Shown here: positions 16,509 through 54,169 of the stretch, piece after piece
How positions within the stretch are numbered: position 1 is the first letter of the stretch
Layout of the letters: each line of letters begins with the position of its first letter
Source: Actinomyces denticolens
GTDB lineage: Bacteria; Actinomycetota; Actinomycetes; Actinomycetales; Actinomycetaceae
Direction of reading: 5' to 3'
NCBI RefSeq assembly: GCF_002072185.1
Contig: NZ_MVIW01000016.1
Location: forward strand, 1-64,000
Length of the DNA stretch: 64,000 bases
Position numbers and translations under genes: made by a program
The notes under the pieces: generated by a model
The model's input: only the letters and a program-made list of their open reading frames with translations
The model's database searches: none
What the model was told of the DNA's origin: nothing

Positions 16509-16562
16509 CGAGACCGGTCGTTATTGTCATCGAGACCGGTTGATACGGACGCCGAGACCGGT
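16509..16562. repeat. 22-bp-period repeat, family A, copy 1 (3 cores)
   Basis: Three CGAGACCGGT cores at 16509-16518, 16531-16540 and 16553-16562, spaced exactly 22 bp, in the convergent gap between mrp and tatB. The 12-nt spacers are similar but not identical (CGTTATTGTCAT, TGATACGGACGC). Each core centres on the palindrome ACCGGT. Confidence 0.85.
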
Positions 16563-16684
16563 CCGGGGCGGGCAGCGCGACGCGATCGGGGCGCGCCGGG
16601 GTCCCTCGCCGGGAACCATCGGTGGGGAGGATCGCCGTCGACGCACTGTTCCACGGGGTGAACCAGTCGAATGGCTGGCGGGGC

Positions 16685-17563
16685 TCAGTCGACGAGCGCT
16701 GACGCCGCAGCCTCGCGGGTCCGAGCGGCCTCCTTGGCGGCCCGCACGATGTCGCGCGGCGAGAGTGGGCACGGCGCGCTGGGCGCGGACGCCGACACGG
16801 CTGCGGGCTCCTCCACCAACGAGGTCGGCACGGTCACTGGCTCCGTCATCGCAGCGACGGGCTCGACGACGGCCGGCTCTGGTGCGGCGGGATCAGCAGT
16901 GGCAGGCCCGGCAGGCGCGGGCCCCGCCGCCGCAGCCGGCTCGCTGAGGCCGATTCCGACGCCTTCGGCATCGACCGACTCAGAGTCCGCAGGGGCATCA
17001 GCGGCCCTGGCCTCGCCGTCGGAGCCCTCCTCCGCGATCGCAGCCTCAGCATCCTCCTCAGCACCGGCCGCCGGACCGGCCTGGGACGCCTCCACCTGCG
17101 GGAGCTCGGCGGTGGCCGCCTCGCCCTCCTTCGCGGCCCGGGCGGCGGCGAGCGCCTCGGCCTTCTTCTCCTCGATCTTGGAGGCCAGGGAGCTCGCCCG
17201 GTCCTTGTCCCGAGCCTCCTTGACGGAGGCGTCAATGTCGTCGGTGGTCTCCTTGGCGGCGTCCTTGACCGCCTTGAATGGCGACTGGAGGTCCTTCTTG
17301 ATGGCGTCGAGGTCCTCCCCCAGGGCGTCGCGCACGATCTTGCGCGGGTCGTACTGGCGCGGGTCGAGGCTGGACAGGTCGAGGTCGGCGAGCTCGGGAC
17401 CGACCTCCTCGGCGATCTGCGTCTTGGTGCTCTCCAGGAAGACGCGCAGCCGGCGGACCATCTGAGTGAGCTTGCGGGTGTACTCGGGCAGCCTCTGGGG
17501 GCCGATGACCACGACGGCCACCAGCAGGAAGACCACGAACTCAGATGAGGAGAATCCCAGCAC
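16685..17563 (-). CDS. tatB: Sec-independent translocase TatB-like protein
   Basis: A 292-residue single-span protein. The N-terminal helix SSSEFVVFLLVAVVVIGPQRLPEYTRK has the Gly-Pro hinge and following amphipathic helix of TatA/TatB; length and the EVGPELADLDL region favour TatB, the substrate receptor of the twin-arginine translocase. The C-terminal half is a long Ala/Glu/Pro-rich, probably disordered tail. It lies next to mrp and an O-methyltransferase, as in M. tuberculosis (Rv1224). GTG 17563 is preceded by a consensus TATACT (17575-17570, minus) exactly 6 nt upstream, so the mRNA is probably leaderless. A family A repeat lies beyond the stop. Confidence 0.85.
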   Translation of the reverse strand: MLGFSSSEFVVFLLVAVVVIGPQRLPEYTRKLTQMVRRLRVFLESTKTQIAEEVGPELADLDLSSLDPRQYDPRKIVRDALGEDLDAIKKDLQSPFKAVKDAAKETTDDIDASVKEARDKDRASSLASKIEEKKAEALAAARAAKEGEAATAELPQVEASQAGPAAGAEEDAEAAIAEEGSDGEARAADAPADSESVDAEGVGIGLSEPAAAAGPAPAGPATADPAAPEPAVVEPVAAMTEPVTVPTSLVEEPAAVSASAPSAPCPLSPRDIVRAAKEAARTREAAASALVD

Positions 17564-17753
17564 GAGGCGAGTATAGAGAGCGCGGGCCGCGATGCCCTCA
17601 TGCGTCCGCTCCCGGCTCAGCGCGGAGCACCACAGTCGGGGCACGACGGCGGGTCGGGCGAGGATTTCCCCGGCCTCCTGGGACAATGCGGTTGCCGCGC
17701 GGATGGCGCGGTGAACTCGAGCGCACGCTTCACCGCCGTGGAAGGGACTCACT

Positions 17754-18389: not shown

Positions 18390-18440
18390 GAGGCCGCGCG
18401 TCCTTCCGCCCCGACCGTGCTGAGCGGCGCGTTCCGCCCC

Positions 18441-18585
18441 GAGAGGTGCCATCCGCTCCCACCGGTGCGTCCTGCCCGCACCTGTCGGTGCGAACGGCAC
18501 CTGTCGGTGCGAGCGGCACCCCTCGGTGCGAACGGCACCCCTCGGTGCGAACGGCACCCCTCAGGGCGAGCGGCACCCCTCGGGG
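18441..18585. repeat. Hairpin-rich intergenic repeat, family B, copy 2
   Basis: Contains the shared block GGTGCGTCCTGCCCGCACC at 18464-18482, followed by five near-perfect tandem units of 19 bp (consensus CGGTGCGAACGGCACCCCT) through about 18582. Each unit boundary can form a small hairpin, GCACC-N4-GGTGC. The array lies in the convergent gap after the O-methyltransferase gene. Confidence 0.88.
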
Positions 18586-18597
18586 CCGAGGGCGATG

Positions 18598-18635
18598 GGA
18601 GAAGGACCGCCCCGATCCGGGAACGGTCCTTCTCC
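18598..18635. terminator. 12-bp hairpin between convergent genes
   Basis: GGAGAAGGACCG (18598-18609) and CGGTCCTTCTCC (18624-18635) are perfect complements around a 14-nt loop, between the O-methyltransferase and DUF3117 genes. A partial pyrimidine run follows on the plus strand. Candidate terminator. Confidence 0.65.
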
Positions 18636-18718
18636 TGCATAACGCGACTGCCTGGCCCCTCCGACGGCGGATGGGCGGGCAACCGACGGGTTCCGGCGCT
18701 CAGCGCCGGGCAAATGGG

Positions 18719-25623: not shown

Positions 25624-25638
25624 GAGGCCGAGAATAGT

Positions 25639-29367: not shown

Positions 29368-29504
29368 GACCCTCCTCTCCGTGCGTTAGGGGCGCACTCG
29401 GCGGTCTCATCGGGCGTCCGCGGCGGCGGGGTCCGCCGCGGGCCGACCAAGCCTAACCCGCATCGACCCCCCAAAGGCGTCGCCCGCATGGCACGATGTG
29501 CGTT

Positions 29505-30818
29505 ATGAGCGACCTCACCACCGACGCTGACGCCGTCACGCCCCCCGCCGCCCCTGATTTCTCCCCCGCCTTGACGAATGAGGAGGGCATCGCCCAGGCC
29601 ACCGCCCTGTTCCACGAGGCCTTCGACTCCGACCCCGACGGCGTCTGGTACGCGCCGGGTCGCGTCAACATCATCGGGGAGCACACCGACTACAACGGCG
29701 GCCTGGCGCTGCCCATCGCCCTGCCGCATCGGGCATTCCTGGCGCTGCGCCGCCGGGATGACCGCACGGTGCGCCTCATCTCCCCGCAGACGCGCGAGGC
29801 CGTGGACGTGCTCGATCTGGACGCCATCGGCCCCAAGGGCACCCCCGGCGAGGTCCCCCAGTGGGCCGCCTACATCGCGGGGGTCGCCTGGGCCCTCGAG
29901 CGCGATGGTCTCGGCCCCCTGCCGGGCTTCGACGCCGCCCTGGTCTCCTGCGTGCCGCTGGGGGCGGGCCTGTCCTCCTCGGCCGCCCTGGAGTGCGCCA
30001 CGAGCGTGGCCCTCGATGAGATCGCGGGGCTCGCGCTGGCCGGGCCCGCCGACGCGCCCGCGGACGCCGGCCGCGCCCGCCTGGTGACCTCCTGCGTGCG
30101 GGCGGAGAACGAGATGGCCGGGGCTCCCACGGGCGGCATGGACCAGTCTGCCTCCCTGCGGTGCCACGCCGGCCATGCCCTCGAGCTCGACTGCCGCGAC
30201 GGCGAGGTCGTTCACGTCCCCTTCGACCTGGCCGCCGAGGGCCTGGCCCTGCTCGTCATCGACACCCGCGCCAAGCACTCACTGGCCGATGGTCAGTACG
30301 GCGCGCGCAGATCGGCCTGCGAGCGCGCGGCGGAGATCCTCGGCGTCGACCTCCTGGCGGATATCGCCCCCGAGGGCCTGGAGGAGGCGCTGGCCGTCCT
30401 GCGCGAGCGCGGTGGCGAGGAGGCGGAGGTCCTGGTGGCCCGCACCCGCCACGTCGTCACCGAGATCGCCCGGACCGTCGAGCTCGTCTCCCTCCTGTCC
30501 GACGGCGCTCCACTGAGCGGGGAGAAGCTGAGCAGAGTCGGGTGGCTCATGGACGCCTCGCACGAGTCGCTGCGCGTGGACTACGAGGTGACCTGCCCCG
30601 AGTTGGACGTGGCCGTCGAGGCGGCGCGCGCCGTCGGCGCCCACGGGGCCCGTATGACCGGCGGCGGGTTCGGGGGCAGCGCGATCGCCCTGGTGGACGC
30701 CGATCGGGTGGACGACGTGGCGCGCGCCGTCGTCGCCGCCTACGGGCGCGAGGGATTCGCCCCGCCGGCGTTCCTCGACGCCGTCCCCAGCGCCCCGGCG
30801 GGCCGCGCGAAGGGCTGA
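29505..30818 (+). CDS. galK: Galactokinase
   Basis: A 437-residue GHMP-family kinase phosphorylating galactose at C1 in the Leloir pathway. The galactokinase signature APGRVNIIGEHTDYNGG (about residues 48-64), ATP loop GAGLSSSAALE and the C-terminal MTGGGFGGSAIAL are all clear. No galT or galE lies nearby. ATG 29505 has CACGAT at 29492-29497, 7 nt upstream; an in-frame ATG at 29496 is less likely. A family A repeat lies 11 bp after the stop. Confidence 0.94.
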   Translation: MSDLTTDADAVTPPAAPDFSPALTNEEGIAQATALFHEAFDSDPDGVWYAPGRVNIIGEHTDYNGGLALPIALPHRAFLALRRRDDRTVRLISPQTREAVDVLDLDAIGPKGTPGEVPQWAAYIAGVAWALERDGLGPLPGFDAALVSCVPLGAGLSSSAALECATSVALDEIAGLALAGPADAPADAGRARLVTSCVRAENEMAGAPTGGMDQSASLRCHAGHALELDCRDGEVVHVPFDLAAEGLALLVIDTRAKHSLADGQYGARRSACERAAEILGVDLLADIAPEGLEEALAVLRERGGEEAEVLVARTRHVVTEIARTVELVSLLSDGAPLSGEKLSRVGWLMDASHESLRVDYEVTCPELDVAVEAARAVGAHGARMTGGGFGGSAIALVDADRVDDVARAVVAAYGREGFAPPAFLDAVPSAPAGRAKG

Positions 30819-30829: not shown

Positions 30830-30861
30830 CGAGACCGGTCGATACTGTCATCGAGACCGGC
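30830..30861. repeat. 22-bp-period repeat, family A, copy 2 (2 cores)
   Basis: Cores CGAGACCGGT (30830-30839) and CGAGACCGGC (30852-30861), exactly 22 bp apart, with spacer CGATACTGTCAT, directly after the galK stop. The remainder of the gap to 31137 (319 bp in all) contains no gene I can support and must carry the promoter of the surface-protein gene. Confidence 0.85.
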
Positions 30862-37577: not shown

Positions 37578-37629
37578 GCTTCTCCTGCGGGTATCGGGCG
37601 CGCGTGCGCGCTGCGGCGGGCGATCCGCG

Positions 37630-37706
37630 GCCCAGGCGGGCGACCCCGGATCTGCGTGTCATGCCGCTCCCCGGTGGTGATCCACCCGGCGCCAGTCGCG
37701 ACGGCA
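37630..37706 (-). promoter_or_regulatory. ZTP (pfl) riboswitch in glyA leader
   Basis: On the minus strand the leader shows the conserved pfl-RNA blocks in order: TGCCG (37706-37702), GACTGGCG (37697-37690), a GGTGG-ATCA-CCACC hairpin running into CCACCGGGGAGCGGCA (37677-37662), where CGGCA pairs back with TGCCG to close P1, then after a linker CCGCCTGGGC (37639-37630), the 3' ligand-binding pseudoknot domain. This class binds ZTP/ZMP and switches on folate one-carbon genes, matching glyA-folD. The expression platform is not obvious; about 50 nt remain before the start codon with the AGGAG site. Confidence 0.92.
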
Positions 37707-37821
37707 CTACCCTATCGCTCCGGGCGCCTCACTGCGACGCGGGGCGGCGGGGACGACGCGGGGCGGGGGACAACGGGGGCGTCGGAGAGACGCGGGGCGG
37801 CAACGGGGGACGGCGCGCCGG

Positions 37822-42444: not shown

Positions 42445-43740
42445 CTGGTACTCGAATCGACGACGCCGCTGCGGGCGCGCGCGGGAGCGGCACGGGACGC
42501 GCGCGCCGCGAGCGGCCCGCGCCTGACCACCGCCCAGGGAACCGCGCTCGCCATGTCCGCCACCGCTCCGTGGTACTCGATCATGGTGACGGCCCCGCTC
42601 ATCGCCGCCCTGGTCGGCGCGGGCACCGCCGTCGTCTACCTGCTCGCGGCGATCCCCGCCGCCCTCGTGGCCGCCGGGATGAGCGCCAACGACCGCCGCG
42701 ACCCGGACAAGGGCAGCGTCTACACCTGGGTGCGGCGCCGCCTGCCGCGCACCGGTTGGTTCGCGGGATTCTGCCTGGCCTCCACCGGCGTCATCGTCAC
42801 CTCCGGCATGGCCTACGTGGCGGCCGACCTCCTCGCCCCCACCGCACCGGCGGCGATCAAGGCCGGCCTGGCGGCGGCGCTCACCGGTCTCGCAGCGCTC
42901 ATCGACCTCTACGAGCTGCGGCTCATGGCGGCCCTCCAGTACCTGGCGGTGATCGCGGGCGTGGGGGCGACGATCGTCTGCGCCGAACTCGTGACCGGGG
43001 GCGGGGTGCGGCTGGCGCCCATGGCCGGCTCGCCCCTCGACTGGTTCCACGCGGTGCTGCTGGCCGTCTTCGCCTACTGGGGATTCGACGCGATCTTCGC
43101 CCTGACCGAGGTCACGAGCACTGGGGCGCCGCAGCGGGTGACCGCGCTGACCGTGGTGGGGCTCGTCGGGTTCTTCGCAATCGGCGGGACGGCGTACAGC
43201 GCCATCGACCCCGCCCCGGTCACGGGCCATCCGGTGGTGCGCATCGCGGTGGTCTCCTCGGCGATCATGAGCCTGGGCTCGACGCTCGTGCCGACGGCGC
43301 GCGGGATCGAGGCGATGGCCGACGCCGGCCAGGTCCCCTCCTGGGCGGGCCGCCTGCGGCGGACCTCCTGGGCGACGGCGGTGGTCACGGCCGCCTCGGT
43401 GGCGTGGACGGGCCTGCTGTTCGTCTCCGAGGGGCTCTTCACGGACACCGTCGAGGCCCTCAGCGTGCTCGTGGGACTGTACTTCTCCGCGAGCTCGCTC
43501 ATCGCGGCGCTGCGCGCCCGCTCCCGGCGCGAGCGGTGGGTCCAGGTCCTGGCGGTCGCGCTCATGGTGGCCATCACGACGGCGGTGGCGATCCAGATGC
43601 TCGATCCGGCTTACGGGGCGACGGCGGTCGGCGGCATTGGCGGGGTGGGGCTCATCGTCGTCGGGCTCAGTGCGCTGGGTGTGGCGGGGGCGTTGCGCTA
43701 CGGCGGCCTCGAATCGGGGACGCGCGGCGGGGCTGGGTAG
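42445..43740 (+). CDS. APC-superfamily permease, probable CTG start
   Basis: A hydrophobic permease with about 11-12 membrane segments (431 residues from CTG 42445). Its first segment belongs to LTTAQGTALAMSATAPWYSI, like helix 1 of amino-acid/polyamine permeases, and this begins upstream of the only ATG (42553). Between the in-frame stop at 42433 and that ATG there is no ATG, GTG or TTG; CTG 42445 has GAGGAG (42434-42439) 5 nt upstream and is therefore the likely start. The alternative from ATG 42553 would lose part of helix 1. Third gene of the lipoprotein/ATP-grasp cassette; substrate unknown. Its TAG stop overlaps the -10 box of purU. Confidence 0.82.
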   Translation: MVLESTTPLRARAGAARDARAASGPRLTTAQGTALAMSATAPWYSIMVTAPLIAALVGAGTAVVYLLAAIPAALVAAGMSANDRRDPDKGSVYTWVRRRLPRTGWFAGFCLASTGVIVTSGMAYVAADLLAPTAPAAIKAGLAAALTGLAALIDLYELRLMAALQYLAVIAGVGATIVCAELVTGGGVRLAPMAGSPLDWFHAVLLAVFAYWGFDAIFALTEVTSTGAPQRVTALTVVGLVGFFAIGGTAYSAIDPAPVTGHPVVRIAVVSSAIMSLGSTLVPTARGIEAMADAGQVPSWAGRLRRTSWATAVVTAASVAWTGLLFVSEGLFTDTVEALSVLVGLYFSASSLIAALRARSRRERWVQVLAVALMVAITTAVAIQMLDPAYGATAVGGIGGVGLIVVGLSALGVAGALRYGGLESGTRGGAG

Positions 43741-43750: not shown

Positions 43751-44653
43751 ATGACTGCTCCTGCGACCGCGACCGCGACGGCTCCCGCCACGCCGTCGGC
43801 GCCCTCCCCCGCCGCCCATCTCGTGCTCACCCTGTCCTGCCCGGACCGCCCCGGCATCGTCCACGCGGTCACGGGGGCGCTGGCCCGGCGCGGGGGCAAT
43901 ATCACCGAGTCCTCCCAGTTCGGCGACGAGGAGACCGGCCTGTTCTTCATGCGCGTGACGGTGCTCACCCGCGTGCCCCGCTCGGAGTTGGAGGCCGACC
44001 TCGCCGAGCTCGCCGAGGCCTACTCCATGCGGTGGGAACTGGGCGAGGTGGACCGCCCCCTGCGCACGCTCATCATGGTGAGCAAGGCCGCCCACTGCCT
44101 GACCGATCTGCTCTTCCGGGCGCGGAGCCAGGGCCTGCCGATCGACGTCGTGGGCGTGGTGGGCAACCACGAGGACCTGCGGCCCGTCGCCGAGTTCTAC
44201 GGCGTTCCCTTCCACTGCATCCCCGTCACCAAGGACACCAAGGCGCAGGCCGAGACCGAACTGCTGGGGCTCGTCGACGAGCTCGGCGTGGAGCTCGTGG
44301 TGCTGGCGCGCTACATGCAGATCCTCTCGGAGTCCCTGTGCGAGCGGCTGCGCGGCAACGTCATCAACATCCACCACTCCTTCCTGCCGTCCTTCAAGGG
44401 CGCCAAGCCCTACCACCAGGCGCACGCGCGCGGCGTCAAGCTCATCGGCGCCACCGCCCACTACGTGACGGCGGACCTGGACGAGGGGCCGATCATCGAG
44501 CAGGACGTCACACGCGCCTCGCACAGCGACTCCCCCGTGGCGCTCCAGCGCAAGGGTCAGGACGTCGAGCGCCGGGTGCTGGCGCAGGCCGTCAAGTGGC
44601 ACGCCGAGCACCGCGTCCTCCTCAACGGCAACCGCACGGTGGTCTTCTCCTGA
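43751..44653 (+). CDS. purU: Formyltetrahydrofolate deformylase
   Basis: A 300-residue PurU hydrolysing 10-formyl-THF to formate and THF. The N-terminal ACT domain begins LVLTLSCPDRPGIVHAVTGAL; the C-terminal formyltransferase-like domain has VVGNHEDLRPVAEFYGVPFHCIP, VINIHHSFLPSFKGAKPYHQAH (catalytic Asn-His) and ATAHYVTADLDEGPIIEQDV (Asp). ATG 43751 has TAGGCT (43738-43743) 7 nt upstream. Balances the folate pools with the glyA-folD unit. Confidence 0.94.
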   Translation: MTAPATATATAPATPSAPSPAAHLVLTLSCPDRPGIVHAVTGALARRGGNITESSQFGDEETGLFFMRVTVLTRVPRSELEADLAELAEAYSMRWELGEVDRPLRTLIMVSKAAHCLTDLLFRARSQGLPIDVVGVVGNHEDLRPVAEFYGVPFHCIPVTKDTKAQAETELLGLVDELGVELVVLARYMQILSESLCERLRGNVINIHHSFLPSFKGAKPYHQAHARGVKLIGATAHYVTADLDEGPIIEQDVTRASHSDSPVALQRKGQDVERRVLAQAVKWHAEHRVLLNGNRTVVFS

Positions 44654-44665
44654 CGGACCGCACTG

Positions 44666-45238
44666 ATGCCGCCGCCGCAGCGCACGCACCGCCGTCACCA
44701 CCGTTGTGCCCAGCCGAGCGCGCCCGCTCTGGTCGTCCTCGGAGGCCTGCCGGCCACGGGCAAGTCGGCGGTGGCAGATCAGCTGTGCCGTGATGCCACC
44801 TGGGCGTGGGTGCGCATCGACTCCATCGAGCAGGCGCTGCGGAACTCCGGTGAGATGGGCCCCGGCGGCGTGCAGGGCGCCGGCTACGCCGTCGGGTACG
44901 CGGTGGCGGGCGACCTGCTGCGCAGCGGCCTGAGCGTCGTCACCGAGTGCGTCAACCCGATCGGCTTGACCCGCGCCGCGTGGCGCGAGGTCGCCCGAGT
45001 CCATGGGGCGGACCTGCTCGAGGTCGAGCTGTGGTGCCAGGACCCGCAGGTCCACCGCTGCCGGGCCGAGAGCAGGGCGGTCGACATCCCGGGCCTCGTC
45101 CTGCCCGCTTGGGAGGAGATCTGCGGGCGCGTTTATGAACCGTGGCGCGACGCCGACCTGCGCATCGACACCTGCGCGGTGTCCCCAGCCGAGGCCGCTG
45201 GTCTCATCCGCTCGGCGGTACGGGCGCAGGCCGACTGA
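44666..45238 (+). CDS. P-loop kinase-like protein (AAA_33 type)
   Basis: A 190-residue P-loop protein with Walker A GLPATGKS at residues 27-34, followed by WVRIDSIEQAL and VVTECVNPIGLTRAAWREVA, the arrangement of zeta-toxin/adenylylsulfate-kinase-like AAA_33 kinases. The phosphate acceptor is unknown. It lies 12 bp after purU and may be co-transcribed. The first 18 residues are His/Arg-rich and variable. A late WEEICGRVYEPW stretch is typical of the family. Confidence 0.8.
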   Translation: MPPPQRTHRRHHRCAQPSAPALVVLGGLPATGKSAVADQLCRDATWAWVRIDSIEQALRNSGEMGPGGVQGAGYAVGYAVAGDLLRSGLSVVTECVNPIGLTRAAWREVARVHGADLLEVELWCQDPQVHRCRAESRAVDIPGLVLPAWEEICGRVYEPWRDADLRIDTCAVSPAEAAGLIRSAVRAQAD

Positions 45239-45379
45239 GGTACGCGTCTCGCCGATGCCCTCCGCACGGCCCGTCTCCTTCGGCGGACGCCCCGTGCGGA
45301 CCAGGCACGCACGGAGCATGATGGGGGGTGGCGTCGGGACGCCCTCGACGCCCTCGCTCCGCGCGCTGAGGAGGCTCTC

Positions 45380-45883
45380 ATGACCCCCGCACCCACCGGT
45401 CCGGGCACCGACGACGTCCTGGCCGCCGCCGAGCGCTACACCGCCGGCTTCCAGCCCGTCGGCCCCGGCGCCCGTCTCGCCGTCGTCGCCTGCATGGACA
45501 ATCGTCTCGACGTCACCCGCCTGCTGGGGCTGGCGGGCGGCGACGCCTACGTCATCCGCAACGCGGGCGGGATCCTCACCGAGGATGTGCGCCGCTCGCT
45601 CGCCATCGCCCAGAACGCGCTCGGGGTCGAGGAGATCCTCCTCATCCACCACACCGACTGCGGCATGTCCCACCTCAACGACTCGGAGTTCGCGAGCTCC
45701 TTGGCCGAGCGCACCGGCCTGCGCCCCACCTGGAGACCGGGAGGCTTCGCCTCCGCCGAGCAGGACCTGCGCGAGATGCTCACGGCCCTGGCCGCCGACC
45801 CGCACGTGCCGGCGGGGGCGGCCGCCCGCGGCTTCGTCTACAACGTCGACAACGGCCGGCTCACGGAGGTCGAGCGGCCATGA
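45380..45883 (+). CDS. Beta-class carbonic anhydrase
   Basis: A 167-residue zinc enzyme hydrating CO2. Zinc ligands and the Asp/Arg dyad are visible: VACMDNRLDV (Cys, Asp, Arg), IHHTDCGMSH (His, Cys). YVIRNAGG is typical of the small beta-class (Rv1284-like) enzymes. ATG 45380 follows GAGGAGG. The stop overlaps the DinB-like start (ATGA). Confidence 0.9.
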   Translation: MTPAPTGPGTDDVLAAAERYTAGFQPVGPGARLAVVACMDNRLDVTRLLGLAGGDAYVIRNAGGILTEDVRRSLAIAQNALGVEEILLIHHTDCGMSHLNDSEFASSLAERTGLRPTWRPGGFASAEQDLREMLTALAADPHVPAGAAARGFVYNVDNGRLTEVERP

Positions 45884-46425
45884 CGACGACGACGTCCTCC
45901 CATCCTCAGGTCCTCGCCGTGCTCCTCGACGCCCTGGAGCGCTCCCGCGAGCGCCTCGGACGCGCCCTCGCCGACGTGACGGCCGAGCAGGCCGGCGCCC
46001 GCCCGGTCGATGCCCTGGCCCCGCGCATCGACTCCCTGGCCTGGCTCGTGTGGCACACGGCCCGGGAGATCGACTTGCAGGTCAGCGATCTCGCGGGCCA
46101 GGAAGCCCTGTGGACCTCGCGCTACGCACGGCTCCTGGACCTGCCCCTGCCTGACGACACCGAGGACTGGCGCCACAGCCCCGAGGAGTCGGCCCGGGTG
46201 CGCGTGAGCGACCTGGCCCCGCTCATCGAGTACCTCGACGCCGCCTACGCGCTCGCCCGCGACTACATCGGCTCGCTCGACCCCGCCACGCTCAACGAGG
46301 TCATCGACCGCTCCTGGGACCCGCCGGTCACACGCGCCGCACGACTGGTCTCGATCATCGACGACGCCGCCCAGCACTCCGGCCAGGCGGTCTGGGCACG
46401 CCGCTTGCTCGGCCTAGAAGGTTGA
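45880..46425 (+). CDS. DinB-like (DUF664/YfiT) metal-binding protein
   Basis: A 181-residue four-helix DinB-superfamily protein. Likely metal-binding His residues occur in WLVWHTAREIDLQV and IDDAAQHSGQ, as in DUF664/mycothiol-dependent maleylpyruvate isomerase-like members. Translation is coupled to carbonic anhydrase through a 4-bp overlap. Possibly a thiol-transferase; the partner thiol is unknown. The low-G+C patch begins directly after its stop. Confidence 0.83.
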   Translation: MTTTTSSHPQVLAVLLDALERSRERLGRALADVTAEQAGARPVDALAPRIDSLAWLVWHTAREIDLQVSDLAGQEALWTSRYARLLDLPLPDDTEDWRHSPEESARVRVSDLAPLIEYLDAAYALARDYIGSLDPATLNEVIDRSWDPPVTRAARLVSIIDDAAQHSGQAVWARRLLGLEG

Positions 46426-46737
46426 TCGGACATGCGCAGAATTGGCTGGCGACATCGGAAAACGCAAGATAGGGAGTCAAGTCGAGGCTCTGCCTCGCTC
46501 CGACTGGACGAGCCTTGGCAGTATCTGTATTTTTTCTGACCGCCAGGTCAATGCGTTCATCGAGAACAACACTCATCACACTTCAAGGGCGACTATCCGT
46601 GAATCAGGACTAAGCAAGATCGCCCAGATCAAGGTTTCACAGTCGAAGACCAAGCCCCCAGCCATTGAGGATAGCAGGTTCGCGCGAGGAGAGAAAGCGA
46701 AAGAAATTCTTGCTCCCAAGGCTCGCTCGAAGCTTTC
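46426..46737. other. Low-G+C segment without clear gene
   Basis: 312 bp of distinctly lower G+C than the surroundings. One frame is open from about 46442 to 46798 (118 codons), but it has no ribosome-binding site, no recognisable sequence and runs into the next gene in another frame. Best read as non-coding or eroded acquired DNA. Confidence 0.4.
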
Positions 46738-47358
46738 ATGCGAAGGGACCTGCGAGTACATCGCATCACTGCCAACGGATACTTTACACCCTTTCTAACC
46801 ACTTATGACACAAACAAATTCGACCACTTTCTCTTCGGTTCCCTTGTCGATATTACAGACCAGTATCTCGCCGCGCTCCGCCTATTCGGATCTGCCCATA
46901 ATCTTCTCGACAGAATCTCCAATTCAGGCCGTTCTCATACGACCGGATGGTACAGCTCCTCAACTCCGGGAATCATCAAACTCATCGACCTTGCGCGCGA
47001 GAACAAGAGAATACACGCATCACACCTCGACCTCGATTCGCGCACAACGATGTTGTACGACGCGGTCAACATCGTTCTCGGGCAGGGGCAGACTCATTTG
47101 ACCAACAGTTCACTTTCTCCTTGCGCAAGATCCTACACAATTGGAGAAGGACTATTCAACGTGCTCGCGAGGATCGACATCCAAACGCCTGAAGGAGCCC
47201 ATTTACCCCGAGACATTCCCTCGCTCACTCATGCGTTCATAGGATCTCCTCTATATATTCGATACAAGGAACGACCTCGATATTACAGCGGAGCGCCTCA
47301 GCTCCCTGCCGCCGACTCCCCATACATGAATTGGGGCATACTGGCCGATACCAGATAA
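46738..47358 (+). CDS. Hypothetical protein in low-G+C island
   Basis: A 206-residue protein I do not recognise. The frame has gene-like codon texture but uses A/T-ending codons (AGA, ATA, CTA, TTG) that neighbours avoid, indicating recent transfer. It is soluble, rich in Leu, Ser, Tyr and Asn, with FDHFLFGSLVDITDQYLAAL and KLIDLARENKRIHASHLDLD, and ends SPYMNWGILADTR; no signal peptide, P-loop or Cys cluster. Upstream in-frame stops at 46672 and 46666 limit it; ATG 46738 lacks a good ribosome-binding site, so the real start, or a lost 5' part, is uncertain. Confidence 0.5.
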   Translation: MRRDLRVHRITANGYFTPFLTTYDTNKFDHFLFGSLVDITDQYLAALRLFGSAHNLLDRISNSGRSHTTGWYSSSTPGIIKLIDLARENKRIHASHLDLDSRTTMLYDAVNIVLGQGQTHLTNSSLSPCARSYTIGEGLFNVLARIDIQTPEGAHLPRDIPSLTHAFIGSPLYIRYKERPRYYSGAPQLPAADSPYMNWGILADTR

Positions 47359-47397
47359 ACCGGACGGAAGGCGCGCCACCATCCCTGTGGACGGCGA

Positions 47398-47429
47398 GCC
47401 GGTCTCGATGGCGTTTTCGACCGGTCTCG
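47398..47429. repeat. 22-bp-period repeat, family A, copy 5 (2 cores, reverse)
   Basis: In reverse orientation: GCCGGTCTCG (47398-47407) and ACCGGTCTCG (47420-47429), 22 bp apart, in the convergent gap between the low-G+C hypothetical gene and nagA. Spacer read on the minus strand: CGAAAACGCCAT. Confidence 0.85.
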
Positions 47430-47452
47430 CTGATAGGTGGGGGGCGGGAGGG

Positions 47453-48706
47453 TCAGGCGGCGTGAGGGCTGGTGAAGTCGACGTCGGCGCCTCGGCGCAG
47501 GACCCGCACGGGGGTGAGCCCGGCGTCGGTGACCAGCACGTCGGCCCATAGACCCGGCCGCAGCGCGCCGATACTGGGGTCCCCGAGGATCCGCGCGCCC
47601 TGGACGGAGGCCGCGTACACGGCGTCCACCAGGTCCACGCCGCCCTTCCAGGTGGTGCGCACGACATCGAGCAGGTGCGCCGTCCCGCCGGCGATCGCCT
47701 CCTTGCCGGTCAGCCGGGCGACACCCCCGGAGACGGTGACGGCCTGGGGGCCGAGGACGTAGTCGCCATCGGGCATGCCGGCCGCGGCCATCGCGTCGGT
47801 GATGAGGACAACGCTGTCCCGCCCCAGCGTCTCGAACATGTCGAGCACGATCGCCGGATCGAGGTGGACGCCGTCGCCGATCATCTCCAGGACGCACTCG
47901 CCCCGCTGGGCGGCGGCCAGGAACTCCGGCACCGGCCCCGGAGCGCGGTGGTGCATGGGGCGCATGCCGTTGAACAGGTGCGTCGCCGTCGAGCGCGGCG
48001 AGCGGACCGGCTCTCCGGCCTCCAGGCGCGCCGCGATGCGGGCGGCGGCGTCGGCCAGGGCGGCCCGCACGGGGGTGGCGCCGGAGTCGGTGTGCCCGAA
48101 GGAGGGCAGGGCGCCGCCCTCGATGAGCGCGGCGTTGACGCCGTCGTCACCCGTGATGCCGGGCTTCTCCGGGGCGATCGTCATCGTGACCACGTGACCG
48201 CGCCCCAGCTCGATGAGCTCACGGGTGAGCCGAGCATCGGGATCGACGATGTAGGTGGGATCCTGGGCTCCGCAGCGCTCCACGGAGACGAACGGCCCCT
48301 CGAAGTGGATGCCGGCGAGCTCGCCCGCTTCGCACAGCTCGGCCAGGACCTTGGTGCGCTCCCTCAGGACATCGGCGGACGCCGTCACGCAGGAGGCCAC
48401 GAGACTGGTGGTGCCGTGGCGGCGGTGCTCCAGGACGGAAACCATCGCCTGCACGGGGGTGGTGGCGTTGGGGAACGACTCGCCGCCCCCGCCGTGGCAG
48501 TGGACGTCCACGAGCCCGGGCAGGAGGTAACCGCCCTCGGGGGCCGCCTCGGCGCCCTGAAGCGCCTCACCGAATCCCGCGCCCGTCGCCGCCGAGGCCT
48601 GACCGACCCAGGCGATATGGCGGTCGGCGACGACGACGAGGCCGTCGTCGATGATGGCGTCCGGTGTGACGACTCGTCCGCGCAGGGCGGTGGCAGCGCT
48701 GCTCAT
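47453..48706 (-). CDS. nagA: N-acetylglucosamine-6-phosphate deacetylase
   Basis: A 417-residue amidohydrolase removing acetate from GlcNAc-6-phosphate in amino-sugar catabolism or wall recycling. Motifs: LVDVHCHGGGGESF, HFEGPFVS (metal Glu), SFGHTDSGA, ATHLFNGMRPMHHR, EMIGDGVHLDP and LITDAMAAAGM (catalytic Asp). ATG 48706 has TATGCT (48718-48713, minus) exactly 6 nt upstream; an upstream in-frame ATG at 48760 is rejected. No nagB is adjacent. A family A repeat lies 23 bp after the stop. Confidence 0.93.
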   Translation of the reverse strand: MSSAATALRGRVVTPDAIIDDGLVVVADRHIAWVGQASAATGAGFGEALQGAEAAPEGGYLLPGLVDVHCHGGGGESFPNATTPVQAMVSVLEHRRHGTTSLVASCVTASADVLRERTKVLAELCEAGELAGIHFEGPFVSVERCGAQDPTYIVDPDARLTRELIELGRGHVVTMTIAPEKPGITGDDGVNAALIEGGALPSFGHTDSGATPVRAALADAAARIAARLEAGEPVRSPRSTATHLFNGMRPMHHRAPGPVPEFLAAAQRGECVLEMIGDGVHLDPAIVLDMFETLGRDSVVLITDAMAAAGMPDGDYVLGPQAVTVSGGVARLTGKEAIAGGTAHLLDVVRTTWKGGVDLVDAVYAASVQGARILGDPSIGALRPGLWADVLVTDAGLTPVRVLRRGADVDFTSPHAA

Positions 48707-48756
48707 GCTCGCAGCATAGACCCAGACATCAGACAACCGCGACCGCGCTGGTCGCA

Positions 48757-50037
48757 TCAACGGGCCAGCCGCTCCTCGATGCCGCGCACGGCTCGCTCCA
48801 CATCCCTCTCGAGGCGCGCCGAGCGCCGGACCCCGGAGGCCCAGATCAGCCCCGCGCCCACTGGCCGCACCGCGACGACGCGCCCGCGGTCCACGAGCAG
48901 GGGCCGGAACATGCCGTTCATGGAGGGGCAGATGAGGCGCTCACCGGCGTCGTCCGTCAGGCAGCCGCGGTCCTTGTAGCCCACATGGAGCTCATCGAAG
49001 GAGGCCAGGAAGAGCGTCCGCTCAGCGTCCTCTCGGTTGGCGGCGAGCAGATCGGGCAGGTCCGCGCGCAGGTGCAGCACGGCGGCGCTGGTCGGCGCCT
49101 CCTCCCCGGTGCCCAGCAGCCGCAGACTCCCTCGGGCCCCTCCTGAGGCCACCGCCCGGGCCAGCGGCACGGCGCCGGTGCCCGGGTCGACCGCGTAGTC
49201 CCGGGCGTTCGTCATCTCGACGGCGTCCGCAAGCGCCCGGGCGGCCTCCCCCTTGGGCAGGGTGGTCCAGCGGGAGAGGTCCTCCGCAGTGATCGGACCG
49301 TGGCTCGTGGCATAGCGCCGGGCGATCTCGGCGAGGGCCGCGCGGTGGCCGGACTGCCCCCTCGCGACTCCTTCTCCGCCTCCCGGCCCGCTCTCGGAGC
49401 CGGGCAGGGGACGGGCGTCGATGATGAGGTGCTCGCCGCCCTCGCGCGGTCCCTGGACGAGGGCGCCGATCGCGTGGAGGCCGACGACGAGGTGTCGCTT
49501 CGCGTAGCCCTCCGGGGCGCCGGAGGCGATGAGATCGGGCAGGACGCCGTCGTCGTGCCAGGCCTCGACGATCTCGGCGCGGGTGGCTCCCGGGCGCCCG
49601 GCGGCCACTGCCCGATCGATCGCCTCCCACGCGGCCCGCGCGGCGCGCTCCATGCCGGCCGAGCCGTGCCCGAAGCGCTCGGCGTCGAGGCGCATCCAGT
49701 TCGACATGCGGTGAACGAGCGCCTCGCGCATCCAGTGGTGGTCGGCAGCCGTCGTGACGTGGACGGTGCCGCGCATGGGCCAGGAGCGCACGAGCTCGCG
49801 GGCCGCGAAAGCCTCCTCGATCCTGGTGCGCCCCACCTGCGGCGCGGTGCGCGAGGCGATGGCGTGCGGGATGGCGGAGACCTGCTGGCCCTGGATGGCG
49901 AGCTGCCGCCGCACGGCCTCGACCGGATCTGGGGCGGCGGTCGCGGGCACGAGCCCCTGCGCCACGATCCGCAGCAGCGAGGCCTGCCGGGGCAGGGGCC
50001 AGCCGACAGGGGCCTTGCGAGGAGCGCGAGCGGTCAT
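48757..50037 (-). CDS. Winged-helix (HTH_42) protein, AlkZ/YcaQ-like
   Basis: A 426-residue protein of the HTH_42 superfamily, which includes the DNA glycosylases AlkZ/AlkX (YcaQ) that excise bulky or crosslinked bases. N-terminal DPVEAVRRQLAIQGQQVSAIP fits the region with the catalytic Q-x-Q motif; WPMRGTVHVTTAADHHWM follows, and the C-terminus has LFLASFDELHVGYKDRGCL, LICPSMNGMFRPLLVDRGRVV. It lies 13 bp after nucS on the same strand, so the pair form a probable repair operon. Glycosylase activity is inferred. Confidence 0.82.
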   Translation of the reverse strand: MTARAPRKAPVGWPLPRQASLLRIVAQGLVPATAAPDPVEAVRRQLAIQGQQVSAIPHAIASRTAPQVGRTRIEEAFAARELVRSWPMRGTVHVTTAADHHWMREALVHRMSNWMRLDAERFGHGSAGMERAARAAWEAIDRAVAAGRPGATRAEIVEAWHDDGVLPDLIASGAPEGYAKRHLVVGLHAIGALVQGPREGGEHLIIDARPLPGSESGPGGGEGVARGQSGHRAALAEIARRYATSHGPITAEDLSRWTTLPKGEAARALADAVEMTNARDYAVDPGTGAVPLARAVASGGARGSLRLLGTGEEAPTSAAVLHLRADLPDLLAANREDAERTLFLASFDELHVGYKDRGCLTDDAGERLICPSMNGMFRPLLVDRGRVVAVRPVGAGLIWASGVRRSARLERDVERAVRGIEERLAR

Positions 50038-50050
50038 GAGAACGTCGCTA

Positions 50051-50746
50051 TCAGAAGAGCCGCGATTCGACGTCGTCCATGCCGCGCATCGCGTCGTAGT
50101 CCAGGACGACGCAGCGGATGCCCCGGTCCTCGGCGAGCACGCGCGCCTGGGGCTTGATGGTCTGAGCGGCGAAAACCCCGCGCACGGGGGCGAGCAGGGG
50201 ATCGCGCCCGAGAAGGTCGAGGTAGCGCGTGAGCTGCTCGACGCCGTCGATCCCGCCCACGCGCTTGATCTCGACGACGATGCTCGCCCCCGTGGAGTCC
50301 TTGGCCATGATGTCCACCGGGCCGATGGCGGTGGGGTACTCGCGGCGCACGAGGCGGTGACCGGGGCCCAGGACCTCGATCTGCTCGGCGAGGAGCTCCT
50401 GGAGGTGGGCCTCGACGCCGTCCTTGAGCAGGCCCGGTTCGGGGCCCAGATCCACCGAGTCGTCCGAGATGATCTCGTGGATGCGGATGACGAGGCGGTC
50501 GTCGGTCTTGGTGGAGGCCACCTCCCAGCGGGCGACGACGCCGGCCTCGCGGTCCTCCTCGTCCGGCTCCAACTCGGTCAGGCGCGCGGGCGGGCTCATC
50601 CAGTTCAGCGGCTTGTAGGAGCCGCCGTCGCAGTGGACGAGCACGGAGCCGTCCGCCTTGACCATGATCAGGCGGTTGGCCCGGTCCAGGTGGGCGGACA
50701 GGCGGCCGGAGTAGTCCACGGAGCAGGAAGCGATGACGACGCGCAC
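50051..50746 (-). CDS. nucS: Mismatch-specific endonuclease NucS/EndoMS
   Basis: A 231-residue NucS, which replaces MutS/MutL-type mismatch repair in actinobacteria by cutting both strands at mismatches. The N-terminal dimerisation domain starts [20 protein letters not shown]; the nuclease core has [11 protein letters not shown] and [21 protein letters not shown] (PD-(D/E)xK type). The C-terminal VESRLF resembles the beta-clamp-binding tail. GTG 50746 has TAGGGT (50758-50753, minus) exactly 6 nt upstream. As in other actinobacteria it lies near the ATP synthase and DUF2550 genes. Confidence 0.95.
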
Positions 50747-50823
50747 CGGCCCACCCTAACGGGTAGCCTCGGGCGCGGACGACAGGACGACGCCCTGGCA
50801 GCCGCGATGCGAGAGGAGTCCGC

Positions 50824-51597
50824 ATGAGCCCTTCCGAGAAGATCCCTGGCCCTCCGGGCCTCCCCGACGATCTCTACAGCGCCAACGCGGACATCCACGC
50901 GGCGCTGGTCCTGCCCTACGTGGAGGCGATGGGCCCCGCGCTCACGGAGATCCTCGGCGGCGACGACGGCGCTCCACCCGGGCTGCCGATCCTCGACCTC
51001 GGCTCGGGCACCGGCGCGCTCCTGCCCTGCCTCGCAGCCCTCGGGGACCATCCGCTGCACGCCGTCGAGCCGCATCCGGCCATGCGGGCGGGGCTCATGG
51101 CCACCGTCTGCGCCCTTCCCGGCCTGGCGCGGCGCGCCACCGTCCTGCCCGGGACCCTCGATGACGCCGCGCCCCTCCTGCCCTCCCGCCTCGGCGCGGT
51201 CGTCGCGCTCAACATGCTCGGGCACCTCGATGAGGCGGAGGAGGAGAGGCTCTGGGACTTCACGGGCGAACGCCTGGCCCCGGGAGGCGTCGTCGTCATC
51301 TCCCTCCAGGGCCCGCTGGAGCCCGTGGAGGTTCCGTGGACCGACTTCGGGCAGAGCGCCGTCGGCGGGCTGCGATACGGCACGGAGGGGCGGGCCGAGC
51401 CCGACGGCGACTCGATGCGCTGGACCATGCGGTGGACGGTCCGCACGGCGGCGGGAGACGTGATCGATGAGCGCGCGGCCCGCACCTCCTGGAGGATCCT
51501 CACCCCGGAGCACTTGCGCGCCAGGGCCGCGCGGGTCGGCCTGGAGCCTGGACCGGTGCGCGATGATCTCCTCCTGCTCTCCTTCGTCCGCCGCTGA
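50824..51597 (+). CDS. Class I SAM-dependent methyltransferase
   Basis: A 257-residue methyltransferase with motif I LPILDLGSGTGALLPCLAAL at about residues 55-74, the acidic AVEPHP, and VVALNMLGHLDEAEE as the motif IV/post region. It looks like a small-molecule or tRNA/protein methyltransferase of the Methyltransf_25 type; the substrate is unknown. ATG 50824 follows AGGAG. It is divergent from nucS, 77 bp away. Confidence 0.83.
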   Translation: MSPSEKIPGPPGLPDDLYSANADIHAALVLPYVEAMGPALTEILGGDDGAPPGLPILDLGSGTGALLPCLAALGDHPLHAVEPHPAMRAGLMATVCALPGLARRATVLPGTLDDAAPLLPSRLGAVVALNMLGHLDEAEEERLWDFTGERLAPGGVVVISLQGPLEPVEVPWTDFGQSAVGGLRYGTEGRAEPDGDSMRWTMRWTVRTAAGDVIDERAARTSWRILTPEHLRARAARVGLEPGPVRDDLLLLSFVRR

Positions 51598-51697
51598 GCG
51601 GGTCTCCTCGACTGGCGGGCTGATCCACGCGGCCGCCCGGGATGAGGGATGATCCGCCTGTTGATCGAGGCTCGCCGCGTCCTGAGGAGTCCCACGA

Positions 51698-53164
51698 GTG
51701 AGCAGCACGAGCACCACGGCACCGCCCGCACCCGGCTCCACCCCCGTCCCGGAGAGCCGGCGCCTCCCCCTGCGCCGGGGCCCGTACCTCACCGGGACGG
51801 CCGGATCGGATCGGCTCATCGGCCTCGACGCCGCTCGGGGCCTCGCGCTGTTCGGCATGGCGGCGGCCCATGTGGGCATCACGAGCTGCGGGCTCAACAC
51901 GCTGCCGGGCTGGCTCAACCTGGCGCACGGCCGCTCCGCGGTGCTCTTCGCGGTCATCGCGGGGTTCTCACTCGGGATCATGTCCGGGCGCGAGAGGCCC
52001 CACACGGGCGATCGCCTCGTGCGCACGCGGCTGCGGATCCTCGTGCGCGCGGTACTGCTCATGGCCATCGCCGGGGTGCTCATCACCTTCACCACCGGGG
52101 TGGTGATCATCCTGGGCTACTACGCCGCCTGGTTCGCCGCGGCACTGCCGGTCCTCCATTGGCGCGCCCGACGGCTGTTCATCGCCGCTGCGGCGACGGC
52201 CGTCGTCGGGCCGCTCGTGCTCAAGGCGCTCCCGCCGGCGATGGCACGCATGGGGCTGGCCTCCTGGCCCGCCGCCTCCGACGGCTCCGAGGCGCTCCTG
52301 GGCCTGTTCGTCACGGGCGCCTATCCAGGGGCGGTGTGGATGTCCTTCATCCTCCTGGGGATAGGGCTCGCGAGGATGGGGATCAGCGGGGCCCGGCGCG
52401 TGGCCCGGCTGGCGGCGATCGGGGCGCTGTGCGCGGTGCTCGGCTACGGCGGCGCCTACCTGCTCACGCGCGCGGCGGGGGCGGAGAGGCCCGACGAGTT
52501 CCACCTCACCGTGTCCACGAGCCGGGGCGCCTCCGAGGGCGGCTCGGATCCCGGTGGCCCCATCATCGGTGCCGATGGCTCCTCCGGTTCCGCGCTCGCT
52601 CAGGGCACCGCCGCCGCGACGCCGGTCTGCGGCGATGGCGAGGCGATCAGCGGCTCCTCCGAGTGGCCGGTGCTGCTGTCGGCCAAGCCGCACACGAACA
52701 GCTTCTTCGAGGTGCTCGGCTCCGGAGGGGTCGCGGTGGCCGTCATCGCCCTGCTGCAACTGCTGGCATCGGCGGGGGCATGGGCGAGGTGGCCGCTCGC
52801 GCCGCTGGCGGCCATGGGATCGATGTCGCTGACGATCTACAGTGCGCATATCGTGGTGATCTGGGCCTTCGACCTCATGAGCGCCCAGGACAACCGCCCG
52901 CTGATGACCATGATGGGCGGCCTGGCAGCCTTCGCGATGGCCTGGCTGGCCGTCTTCGCCCGCGGGCCGATGGAGCACATCATCCATGTGATCTCCCTGC
53001 GGGCCGCCCGCGCCTCCAGTGACCCGCCCCTTTTCGCCGAGACCGGTCGATATCGCCATCGAAACCGGTCGAAAACGGCAACGAAACCGGTCCATCCCTC
53101 GCTCGCAATTCCCCAAGGCGCCCCGTGCGACGCCACGTCTCGCTCAGATCACGGACAGATCTAG
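51698..53164 (+). CDS. DUF418/heparan acyltransferase-like membrane protein
   Basis: A 488-residue membrane protein with about ten segments. The start LIGLDAARGLALFGMAAAHVG is the DUF1624/DUF418 (acyltransferase-like) signature with the membrane His; SMSLTIYSAHIVVIWAF occurs near the end, also typical. A long polar loop of about 90 residues (STSRGASEGGSDPGG onward) probably faces outside. GTG 51698 follows GAGGAG. The last 40 or so codons, from PLFAETGRYRHRNRSK on, are encoded by a family A repeat (53038-53091) and its flank, so the original C-terminus has probably been replaced. Confidence 0.83.
   Translation: MSSTSTTAPPAPGSTPVPESRRLPLRRGPYLTGTAGSDRLIGLDAARGLALFGMAAAHVGITSCGLNTLPGWLNLAHGRSAVLFAVIAGFSLGIMSGRERPHTGDRLVRTRLRILVRAVLLMAIAGVLITFTTGVVIILGYYAAWFAAALPVLHWRARRLFIAAAATAVVGPLVLKALPPAMARMGLASWPAASDGSEALLGLFVTGAYPGAVWMSFILLGIGLARMGISGARRVARLAAIGALCAVLGYGGAYLLTRAAGAERPDEFHLTVSTSRGASEGGSDPGGPIIGADGSSGSALAQGTAAATPVCGDGEAISGSSEWPVLLSAKPHTNSFFEVLGSGGVAVAVIALLQLLASAGAWARWPLAPLAAMGSMSLTIYSAHIVVIWAFDLMSAQDNRPLMTMMGGLAAFAMAWLAVFARGPMEHIIHVISLRAARASSDPPLFAETGRYRHRNRSKTATKPVHPSLAIPQGAPCDATSRSDHGQI
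53038..53091. repeat. 22-bp-period repeat, family A, copy 3 (3 cores)
   Basis: Cores CGAGACCGGT (53038-53047), CGAAACCGGT (53060-53069) and CGAAACCGGT (53082-53091), exactly 22 bp apart, spacers CGATATCGCCAT and CGAAAACGGCAA. The only copy lying inside an open frame: it encodes part of the C-terminus of the DUF418-like protein. Confidence 0.88.
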
Positions 53165-53281
53165 CGCACAGGTCAGCGGGCCTCTACCGTGAGCACGACG
53201 GCGCTGGCGCCGTCGCGGGTCCGCCCTGAGGCCTGCGCTCTCCCTGGTCAACATCATCGGTTCTCCTGGAAGGCATGCCCC

Positions 53282-54169
53282 ATGAATCCCCTCCCGCCCG
53301 CCCCGAGCAAGGCCGCCCGCGCCTCCTCCCAGCAGCACGCCCCTCGGCGCCCCCTCCGACTCACGATGATCCGTGGCGCCGGACTGGGATGCTCCCTGCT
53401 GCTCGCCCTGGGCGCCTGCTCATCCGATGGCGGCACCATCAGCACCACCTCGACGCCGTCGGCGACCATCGCCGCCACCGCCGTCGAGACCGGCGGGCCG
53501 GACTCGACCAGCGCCCCCTCCGACGCCCCGGCGGCCCTTCTCTCCACGGTCCAGCCCGGCGAGGGATATATCTGCGACGGCGAGAGCACCGATGGCTCGG
53601 ACGCCAGCGGGGGCTGCCGTCGGCAGACCGCCGGGCTGGCCCCCGAGGAGGCCACCGGGGCCCCGCTCCATCCCCCACCGGCGACGACGCGCCTGGGGAG
53701 TAACGACACCGGATCACCACCTCATGCCTCATCTGATGCGGGCCCGAACCGGTCTCGACCGTCATTTCGACCGGTTTCGATGACGTTTTCGACCGGTCTC
53801 GCTCATAAGAGGGGGTTAGAGGAGTGTGGGTTGGGTGGGGGCGGCGGACTCCATCCAGGCGACGAGGGCGGAGTGGGACGCCTCGTGCATCGCCAGCTTG
53901 TAGCGCCGGCCCGCGATGGTGCAGGGGACCTCGAGGACCTTGCCGTTCTCGAAGCGCCTCACGGCCTGACCGAGCTCGATCGACTCCCTGGCCCAGTGGG
54001 CGGCGGGCCGAGGGGACACCGAGATGAGCCGGTACCAGCGCAGGGAGTTATCGGTGAACAGCGCCAGCCCGGAGGTCCAGGTCATGCCCCCCGGCCGCTG
54101 CAGGGCGCACTCGAAGGAGCCCACGCGCCCGGCGATCGAGCGCAGCCGGGTCAGGAAGATGACGAGTAG
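53282..54169 (+). CDS. Lipoprotein gene with abnormal 3' end (possible remnant)
   Basis: ATG 53282 opens a frame for a lipoprotein: basic N-terminus, hydrophobic GLGCSLLLALGAC with lipobox LGAC at about residue 46, then a Ser/Thr-rich segment and a short part with two Cys (GYICDGESTDG, SGGCRRQ). From about 53740 the frame enters a family A repeat and then runs 350 bp antisense through the DUF2550 gene, so the second half cannot be authentic. The natural stop was probably lost when the repeat arrived, or a frameshift is present: another frame stops at 53703. Real product likely 130-150 residues. Function unknown. Confidence 0.45.
   Translation: MNPLPPAPSKAARASSQQHAPRRPLRLTMIRGAGLGCSLLLALGACSSDGGTISTTSTPSATIAATAVETGGPDSTSAPSDAPAALLSTVQPGEGYICDGESTDGSDASGGCRRQTAGLAPEEATGAPLHPPPATTRLGSNDTGSPPHASSDAGPNRSRPSFRPVSMTFSTGLAHKRGLEECGLGGGGGLHPGDEGGVGRLVHRQLVAPARDGAGDLEDLAVLEAPHGLTELDRLPGPVGGGPRGHRDEPVPAQGVIGEQRQPGGPGHAPRPLQGALEGAHAPGDRAQPGQEDDE
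53748..53801. repeat. 22-bp-period repeat, family A, copy 4 (3 cores, reverse)
   Basis: Reverse-orientation cores ACCGGTCTCG (53748-53757), ACCGGTTTCG (53770-53779) and ACCGGTCTCG (53792-53801), exactly 22 bp apart, ending 14 bp before the stop of the convergent DUF2550 gene. Spacers on the minus strand: CGAAAACGTCAT and CGAAATGACGGT. Confidence 0.88.

Follow-up and report, generated by a model that had tools for sequence, protein, structure and literature searches.

Inward-facing arrays of 22-bp repeats behind Actinomyces genes as possible ends of small mobile DNA units

The window analysed here is a 64,000-nt stretch of Actinomyces denticolens DNA (contig NZ_MVIW01000016.1, positions 1 to 64,000 of the forward strand). 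It contains five short arrays, in which two or three cores of the form CGARACCGGT recur at an exact 22-bp period. Similar arrays are numerous in some Actinomyces genomes, where they pair as inward-facing ends of larger units, some with genes. We put the chances at about even that Actinomyces has a family of small, non-autonomous mobile DNA units whose ends are these arrays. Comparison among genomes gives evidence that such units, as a family with species dialects, have moved in the past in some Actinomyces. An earlier sequence-only reading of the window had described the arrays as a dispersed element and had proposed protein binding or a hairpin as their role; this interpretation is partly supported. 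Going beyond it are the pairing into larger units, an orientation that mostly follows the neighbouring gene, and a spacer dialect that switches jointly among copies at orthologous sites.

All five loci were re-located in the window with their exact 22-bp spacing. CGARACCGGT-N12-CGARACCGGT, with up to 3 mismatches, occurs 8 times in the window, where 100 shuffles lead one to expect 0.02. The genome to which the window belongs (G000; 2.83 Mb in 90 contigs) contains 127 pairs of CGARACCGGT separated by 0-30 nt (70 on the + strand and 57 on the - strand), and the reversed control has 0; all the matches listed are 32 nt long, which corresponds to the 22-bp period. Chance origin is rejected by the shuffles, the reversed control and controls across the genus (0). 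The element is thus dispersed and strictly periodic, as had been claimed; the search of the genome and its relatives proposed with that claim finds arrays genome-wide in G000 and in some related Actinomyces. In a set made up of the window and 40 stretches chosen around hits (458,861 bases), neighbouring same-strand cores (up to one mismatch, less than 120 bp apart) lie 22 bp apart in 114 of 120 cases. This set holds 63 array groups and 77 distinct arrays: 43 with two cores, 32 with three and 2 with four. Isolated exact cores are rare, both in these hit-centred stretches (5 of 183) and in the window (1 of 12, at 42883). Steps other than 22 bp, such as 19 bp, are also rare and are found in two other genomes, G032 and G014.

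The distribution of the arrays is patchy. The strict core pattern matches 8 of 59 genomes, G000 included. The looser pattern CGARACCGG-N13-CGARACCGG matches 14 of 49 genomes of the genus and is absent from the other 35, with controls at 0 in all. Six genomes are rich in arrays: G032 (210 matches), G000 (147), G012 (141), G067 (119), G035 (109) and G014 (104). Each of the remaining eight has between 1 and 16 matches. From shared coordinates or sequence, G035 is taken as A. gaoshouyii and G067 as A. timonensis-like. A scan of public genomes has A. gaoshouyii, A. timonensis, A. ruminicola and A. israelii among the matches listed; single matches listed in unrelated genera are taken as chance. Spacers differ between species. 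Typical units are CGAGACCGGT-CGAAAACGYCAT and CGAGACCGGT-CGAAGTGGCGAT in G000, CGAGACCGGT-CGAAAATAGGAG and CGAGACCGGT-CGAAAACAGCAT in G035 and G032, CGAGACCGGG-CGAACAGCACSG in G067, CGAGACCGGG-ACATATGTACCG and CGAGACCGGG-ACATATGGCTCA in G012, and CGAAACCGGC-GGAAACGACACG in G014. The 22-bp period is common to these five dialects, though the spacers and even the last core base differ. Searches of the open-licence PubMed Central (PMC) literature listed nothing on these repeats.

Pairing is clearest in G032, a complete genome, where exact matches give 104 listed arrays below 2.096 Mb; the G032 counts by strand and gap given here and below refer to the arrays listed. Consecutive arrays that face each other (+ followed by -) lie within 2.5 kb in 34 of 37 cases, as against 0 of 36 for consecutive -/+ neighbours. 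The gap between facing arrays is 6 bp in 15 pairs, 57-59 bp in 4 and 0.4-1.9 kb in 10. Such an asymmetry is expected in part if arrays merely track gene ends; most telling are the pairs 0.4-1.9 kb apart, and 7 of these 10 units have genes called within them. Among the products of inner genes in the G032 and G014 units that were read are DUF6318 and PKD-like proteins (the latter a weak match), two transporters, a metal-sensing repressor, an FMN oxidoreductase and a protein weakly matching DUF559. Two identical direct arrays of A. gaoshouyii enclose a gene for a PhdYefM-type antitoxin and a partner open reading frame (ORF); the counterpart site in G000 has one array without those genes. At the other extreme are short-loop palindromes of 70 bp. 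In 20 of 22 of them the two arms have the same inner spacers (7 of 8 in G000, 10 of 11 in A. gaoshouyii, and 3 of 3 among the fetched G032 loci).

One unit of about 2 kb, with the DUF6318 and PKD-like genes, is present at three unrelated places in G032, in either orientation. The alignment of its copies spans from array to array. Beyond the outermost cores, two copies share about 12 bases at one end and another two share about 8 at the other; past these bases the flanks are unrelated. This unit has no match in a phage collection and a single match in a plasmid collection, to an A. oris record (24% of the query at 74%). In A. oris NZ_CP116225.1 (L337, 2303-2439), another inverted repeat, GGTGTCACGTTTGGCGACTTT / AAAGTCGCCGATTGTGACACC, adjoins a DUF6318 gene and its neighbour. 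Two clean vacant sites are known. G067 lacks the whole L250 unit of G032 while both flanking genes are in place, and G000 (L129) lacks a unit found in G014 (L258).

The core and the spacers change at very different rates. At 24 sites shared by G000 and A. gaoshouyii with the same strand layout (other layouts were dropped), 32 first units can be compared. Differences amount to 5 of 416 cases (1.2%) at positions 1-13 and to 48% at positions 14-22; all 32 G000 units have G at position 18, where 26 of the 32 A. gaoshouyii units have A. By these figures the core turns over much more slowly than the spacers, which change together throughout the genome. Core number at orthologous sites varies in steps of complete 22-bp units, as in the pairs L120/L093 and L129/L065. 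Spacers may turn over because a changing binding protein exerts selection on them, or through gene conversion or re-insertion.

Under the mobile-unit interpretation, each end of a unit would be a row of 2-5 direct 22-bp repeats, consisting of a conserved CGARACCGG part and a dialect-specific spacer, with the two ends facing inward. Each repeat would be one binding site for a trans-acting DNA-binding protein, and the 22-bp step would place successive sites on the same helix face. The binding protein would move the units, or would have done so formerly. Changes in its specificity, or recombination among copies, could switch the spacer dialect genome-wide. Solo arrays may be single-ended or decayed copies, and palindromes with a 6-7 bp loop may be a minimal form resembling a miniature inverted-repeat transposable element (MITE). 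The idea that successive cores are protein sites on one DNA face had been raised from the window; it is the best reading of the repeats, as the period is kept across five dialects and folding is weak in three of them.

In the window, all but one of the arrays have this layout relative to genes: they lie 11-23 nt past a stop codon and run with the gene whose stop precedes them. The first (16509-16562, +, three cores) is 21 nt past the stop of an Mrp/NUBPL-type gene (15345-16487, +), and it is kept at the orthologous A. gaoshouyii site with a different spacer dialect. The second (30830-30861, +, two cores) is 11 nt past a galactokinase-type gene (29496-30818, +). The third (47398-47429, -, two cores) is 23 nt past an amidohydrolase-family gene whose stop is at 47453 (47453-48706 or 48760, -), and A. 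gaoshouyii has arrays at the orthologous site, L080. The last two have three cores each and bound a unit at 53038-53801, with 656 bp between them. The right-hand array (53748-53801, -) is 14 nt past the stop (53816) of a DUF2550 gene (53816-54229, -). The left-hand array (53038-53091, +) lies within the last codons of ORF 51698-53164, which matches HGSNAT/DUF418 and whose A. gaoshouyii ortholog has its stop 28 nt before its array. The two are treated as one inward-facing pair because the 53038 array lies at the end of a gene convergent with that behind 53748. As described earlier, three of the arrays do lie between convergent genes; the orientation, which had been taken merely to vary between loci, is corrected to one that follows the preceding gene in four of the five.

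The 53038-53801 unit has counterparts at the same site elsewhere. In G032 three + cores and four - cores enclose 883 bp, in G067 there are two + and two - cores, and A. gaoshouyii has a lone + array. The inner segment (53092-53747, +) is in part similar to its counterparts in G067 and G032. Read by eye, it contains a lipobox-like reading frame from an ATG at 53282 that stays open through the right array. An ORF in another frame (53275-53703) has no Pfam match.

A number of observations weigh against the mobile-unit interpretation. Most sites are old: look-ups of nine G032 units of gene size in each of G000, G035 and G067 place an array at the orthologous site in 20 of 27 cases, and of 40 comparisons covering 35 G000 sites, with loci fetched by motif, 38 keep an array. 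In three of the 7 look-ups without an array the DUF6318/PKD unit is still there, its arrays being decayed or cut off, and another ends at a contig border. G000 and G067 have no arrays at the L245 site, but the right-hand neighbour differs as well, so that this site proves little as a vacant one. In the 40-70 bp class of pairs the arms are identical in 0 of 11. Orthologous palindromes that carry different spacers on both arms need either re-insertion or conversion. A target duplication is not seen; direct repeats of at least 4 nt flank 0 of 55 units when the outermost core is taken as the end, a definition that does not cover a true end a few bases further out. Finally, the conserved sites and core would also follow from a host role at gene 3' ends.

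The search for a mover is a further point on this side. No Y1 transposase (PF01797) is found in any of the 49 genomes, with a positive control in 5 of 14. Tyrosine recombinase matches (PF00589) number two each in G000, G035, G012 and G014 and three in G032 and G067; the two proteins in each of the first four genomes are presumably XerC and XerD. Serine recombinase matches (PF00239) are absent from G012, partial only in G032 and G014, and one or two in G000, G035 and G067. No recombinase is recognised inside the units read, which are a sample only, and no transposase among their inner genes; TnsB/MuA-type genes were not searched for genome-wide. Three candidate systems are rejected on these grounds: repetitive extragenic palindromic (REP) sequences linked to REP-associated tyrosine transposases (RAYTs), as PF01797 is absent from the 49 genomes; an integron-like integrase, as four array-rich genomes have only two PF00589 proteins each (the integrase subfamily was not tested directly); and a serine recombinase common to the array-rich genomes, as G012 has none.

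A gene-cassette system of its own kind is possible, if unlikely. Single genes would be its units, with inverted iteron-array ends, lying past stop codons and without target duplication; the protein that moved them would be something other than a Y1 transposase or an added tyrosine or serine recombinase, and the species dialect would change across all copies together.

It is rather unlikely that the arrays are a fixed host element at gene 3' ends. Here the arrays would be a multi-site platform for a chromosomal protein that acts as a roadblock to RNA polymerase, insulates convergent genes or organises the chromosome, and the dialects would reflect co-evolution. The arrays show a strong preference for DNA just past stop codons, which the mobile-unit interpretation takes in as well. 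In the G000 stretches, for which gene calls were home-made and imperfect, an array running with the gene lies no more than 80 nt past the stop in 37 of 323 called genes, at a median of 16 nt. Convergent ends make up 24 of these 37 and 62 of the 265 that lack arrays. Between stop and array there is a C-rich leader (55% C and 17% G, compared with 41% and 37% behind 128 genes without arrays). Arrays mostly follow the direction of the preceding gene: among 49 single arrays, a stop lies within 80 nt on the 5' side only in 26, on both sides in 5, on the 3' side only in 2 and on neither in 16. The conservation of most sites between species and the near-invariant core also suit a host element, as does the skew of G032 + arrays toward dnaA (40 of 53 in the origin half; binomial p 1.3e-4), with 23, 7, 6 and 17 + array groups in successive 600-kb quarters of G032:C1. 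What a host element leaves unexplained is the three-copy unit bounded near its outermost cores, the clean vacant sites, the genes between arrays and the lack of matches to the looser pattern in 35 of the 49 genus genomes. In G000, A. gaoshouyii and G032 the ribosomal-protein cluster also has an array-bounded unit of about 1.2 kb between its S17 and L14 genes. This is an odd place for a strong stop, although an inner promoter could serve the downstream genes. A further G000 array lies between the L15 and SecY genes.

Some other features of array positions may be recorded. An array pair lies between dnaA and dnaN in G000 (L127, 4241-4363), 11 nt past the dnaA stop, and by homology a pair occupies the same place in G032 (C1:1750-1872). 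TCCACAG, which resembles a DnaA box, occurs within 40 nt past 14 of 77 G000 arrays (e.g. L127 from 4273) against about 0.17 expected, and CCACAG stands at a fixed 7-nt offset past 15 of the 77. At L145 (4685-7626) G000 has three same-direction arrays, about 0.46 and 2.3 kb apart; two have an identical 25 bp behind them and the third is similar.

An RNA (or single-stranded DNA) hairpin, in which the palindromic successive cores pair to form a terminator or a stem-loop that stabilises mRNA 3' ends, is improbable. The GACCGGTC cores are able to pair, short-loop palindromes would give long perfect stems, and folding is stronger than in shuffles (z below -2) for 68 of 109 distinct arrays of G000 and A. 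gaoshouyii. In G067, G012 and G014, however, mean z is -0.4 to -1.9 and only 1 of 25 arrays is below -2, although the 22-bp period persists. In three-core arrays, spacers 1 and 2 match each other no more closely than they match shuffled partners (as good in 791 and in 1129 of 2000 shuffles), and a hairpin with covarying spacers is rejected on this ground. TTTT is rare behind stops with arrays (3 of 37) or without (5 of 128), and the arrays do not in general show the GC hairpin and following T tract of an intrinsic terminator. Folding energy over 90 nt behind stops is no stronger with arrays (-40.4) than without (-42.5). Terminator-like sites in 44001-64000 number 5 against 3.0 expected and none overlaps an array; in favour, one of them, at 47380-47363 (-), starts 17 nt behind the 47398 array. 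A known RNA family is rejected, as no Rfam family matches at the arrays; the window does contain a ZMP/ZTP riboswitch at 37623-37709 (-; 52.2 bits). The hairpin and terminator roles that had been offered as alternatives are weakened because spacers 1 and 2 do not covary and an array-bounded unit lies inside the ribosomal-protein cluster; these roles fit worse than mobile units.

The least probable reading, and a very doubtful one, makes the arrays recombination landing sites, whose core is shared homology for RecA (with natural transformation) or for XerC/XerD swaps without a dedicated mover: it draws on whole-unit differences at orthologous sites, spacers that look exchanged, genes between identical direct arrays and the two tyrosine recombinases of four array-rich genomes, but in the three-copy unit the arrays have unusual spacers of their own right up to the ends, which means that each array travelled entire, while 32-54 bp of homology is short for RecA and the arrays do not appear to resemble dif.

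The mobile-unit interpretation can be set beside known systems. MITEs resemble the smallest units in form; both are short and non-autonomous with terminal inverted repeats and many near-identical copies, here the 70-bp palindromes with identical arms in 20 of 22 and, in G032, the 15 pairs with a 6-bp loop. Integron gene cassettes are single genes with a repeat past the stop codon, and their cargo can be of the toxin-antitoxin type. The arrays likewise lie behind the stops of single genes and have cargo of the toxin-antitoxin type, but they are dispersed genome-wide and follow core genes as well, dnaA among them, and four array-rich genomes have only two tyrosine recombinases each. DNA uptake sequences reportedly have a core of about 10 nt, species dialects and inverted pairs behind genes. 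The arrays share all three traits; their cores, however, are seldom single and stand in 22-bp register, and an uptake sequence is rejected because isolated cores are rare (1 of 12 in the window, 5 of 183 in the hit-centred stretches) where an uptake sequence would have many single copies, inside genes as well.

Two further systems are relevant. Ends of the Mu type have repeated sites, and Tn7 inserts just behind glmS. Like Tn7-like and Mu-type elements, the units have inverted rows of sites of about 22 bp at both ends, varied cargo and positions just past genes. They differ in that no target duplication is seen, the repeat itself is outermost, there are more than 100 pairs per genome, and no transposase is recognised among the inner genes read (TnsB-type genes were not searched for). 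The array-ended shape has a precedent, since Tn7-like ends carry arrays of transposase sites with 22-bp repeats (PMC8649781); the arrays here are at most candidate members of the Tn7-like group. In another account (PMC3116915), REPs, bacterial interspersed mosaic elements and REP doublets forming hairpins (REPINs) are extragenic inverted doublets, miniature non-autonomous units with RAYT transposases. The arrays also have more than 100 extragenic copies, as inverted doublets (127 pairs in G000; 34 of 37 +/- neighbours within 2.5 kb in G032), with short-loop doublets forming hairpins and a patchy presence among species. They differ in that no Y1/RAYT gene is found in 49 genomes, each arm is a tandem 22-bp array, some units contain genes, and placement and orientation follow stop codons, with spacer dialects.

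A repeat resembling an insertion sequence (IS; GGACCAGCGCTCCTATGTTGT...) is present at nine G000 contig ends (L294-L302, on C2, C3, C11, C12, C42 twice, C63, C68 and C46). Eight of the nine follow a two-core array, 4-5 nt past its last core in seven cases and 12 nt past it in the other, a placement that would fit targeting of the arrays. It recalls ISPpu9, which is reportedly inserted in REPs. With up to 2 mismatches it was not found in the five other array-rich genomes. Viral contigs gave 3 matches, which look unrelated to the arrays; in one (L112, about 2780-2836) three similar cores at about 22 bp lie inside a gene that, by eye, resembles a replication initiator; these are like origin iterons and probably unrelated to the arrays.

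If the mobile-unit interpretation is true, some Actinomyces genomes contain about 100 copies of an undescribed type of mobile unit, which shapes their intergenic content and brings in single genes. The mover would then be either a new enzyme or a known one in a new role. Species dialects around a near-invariant core amount to a natural experiment in the co-evolution of a protein and its DNA sites at the same loci.

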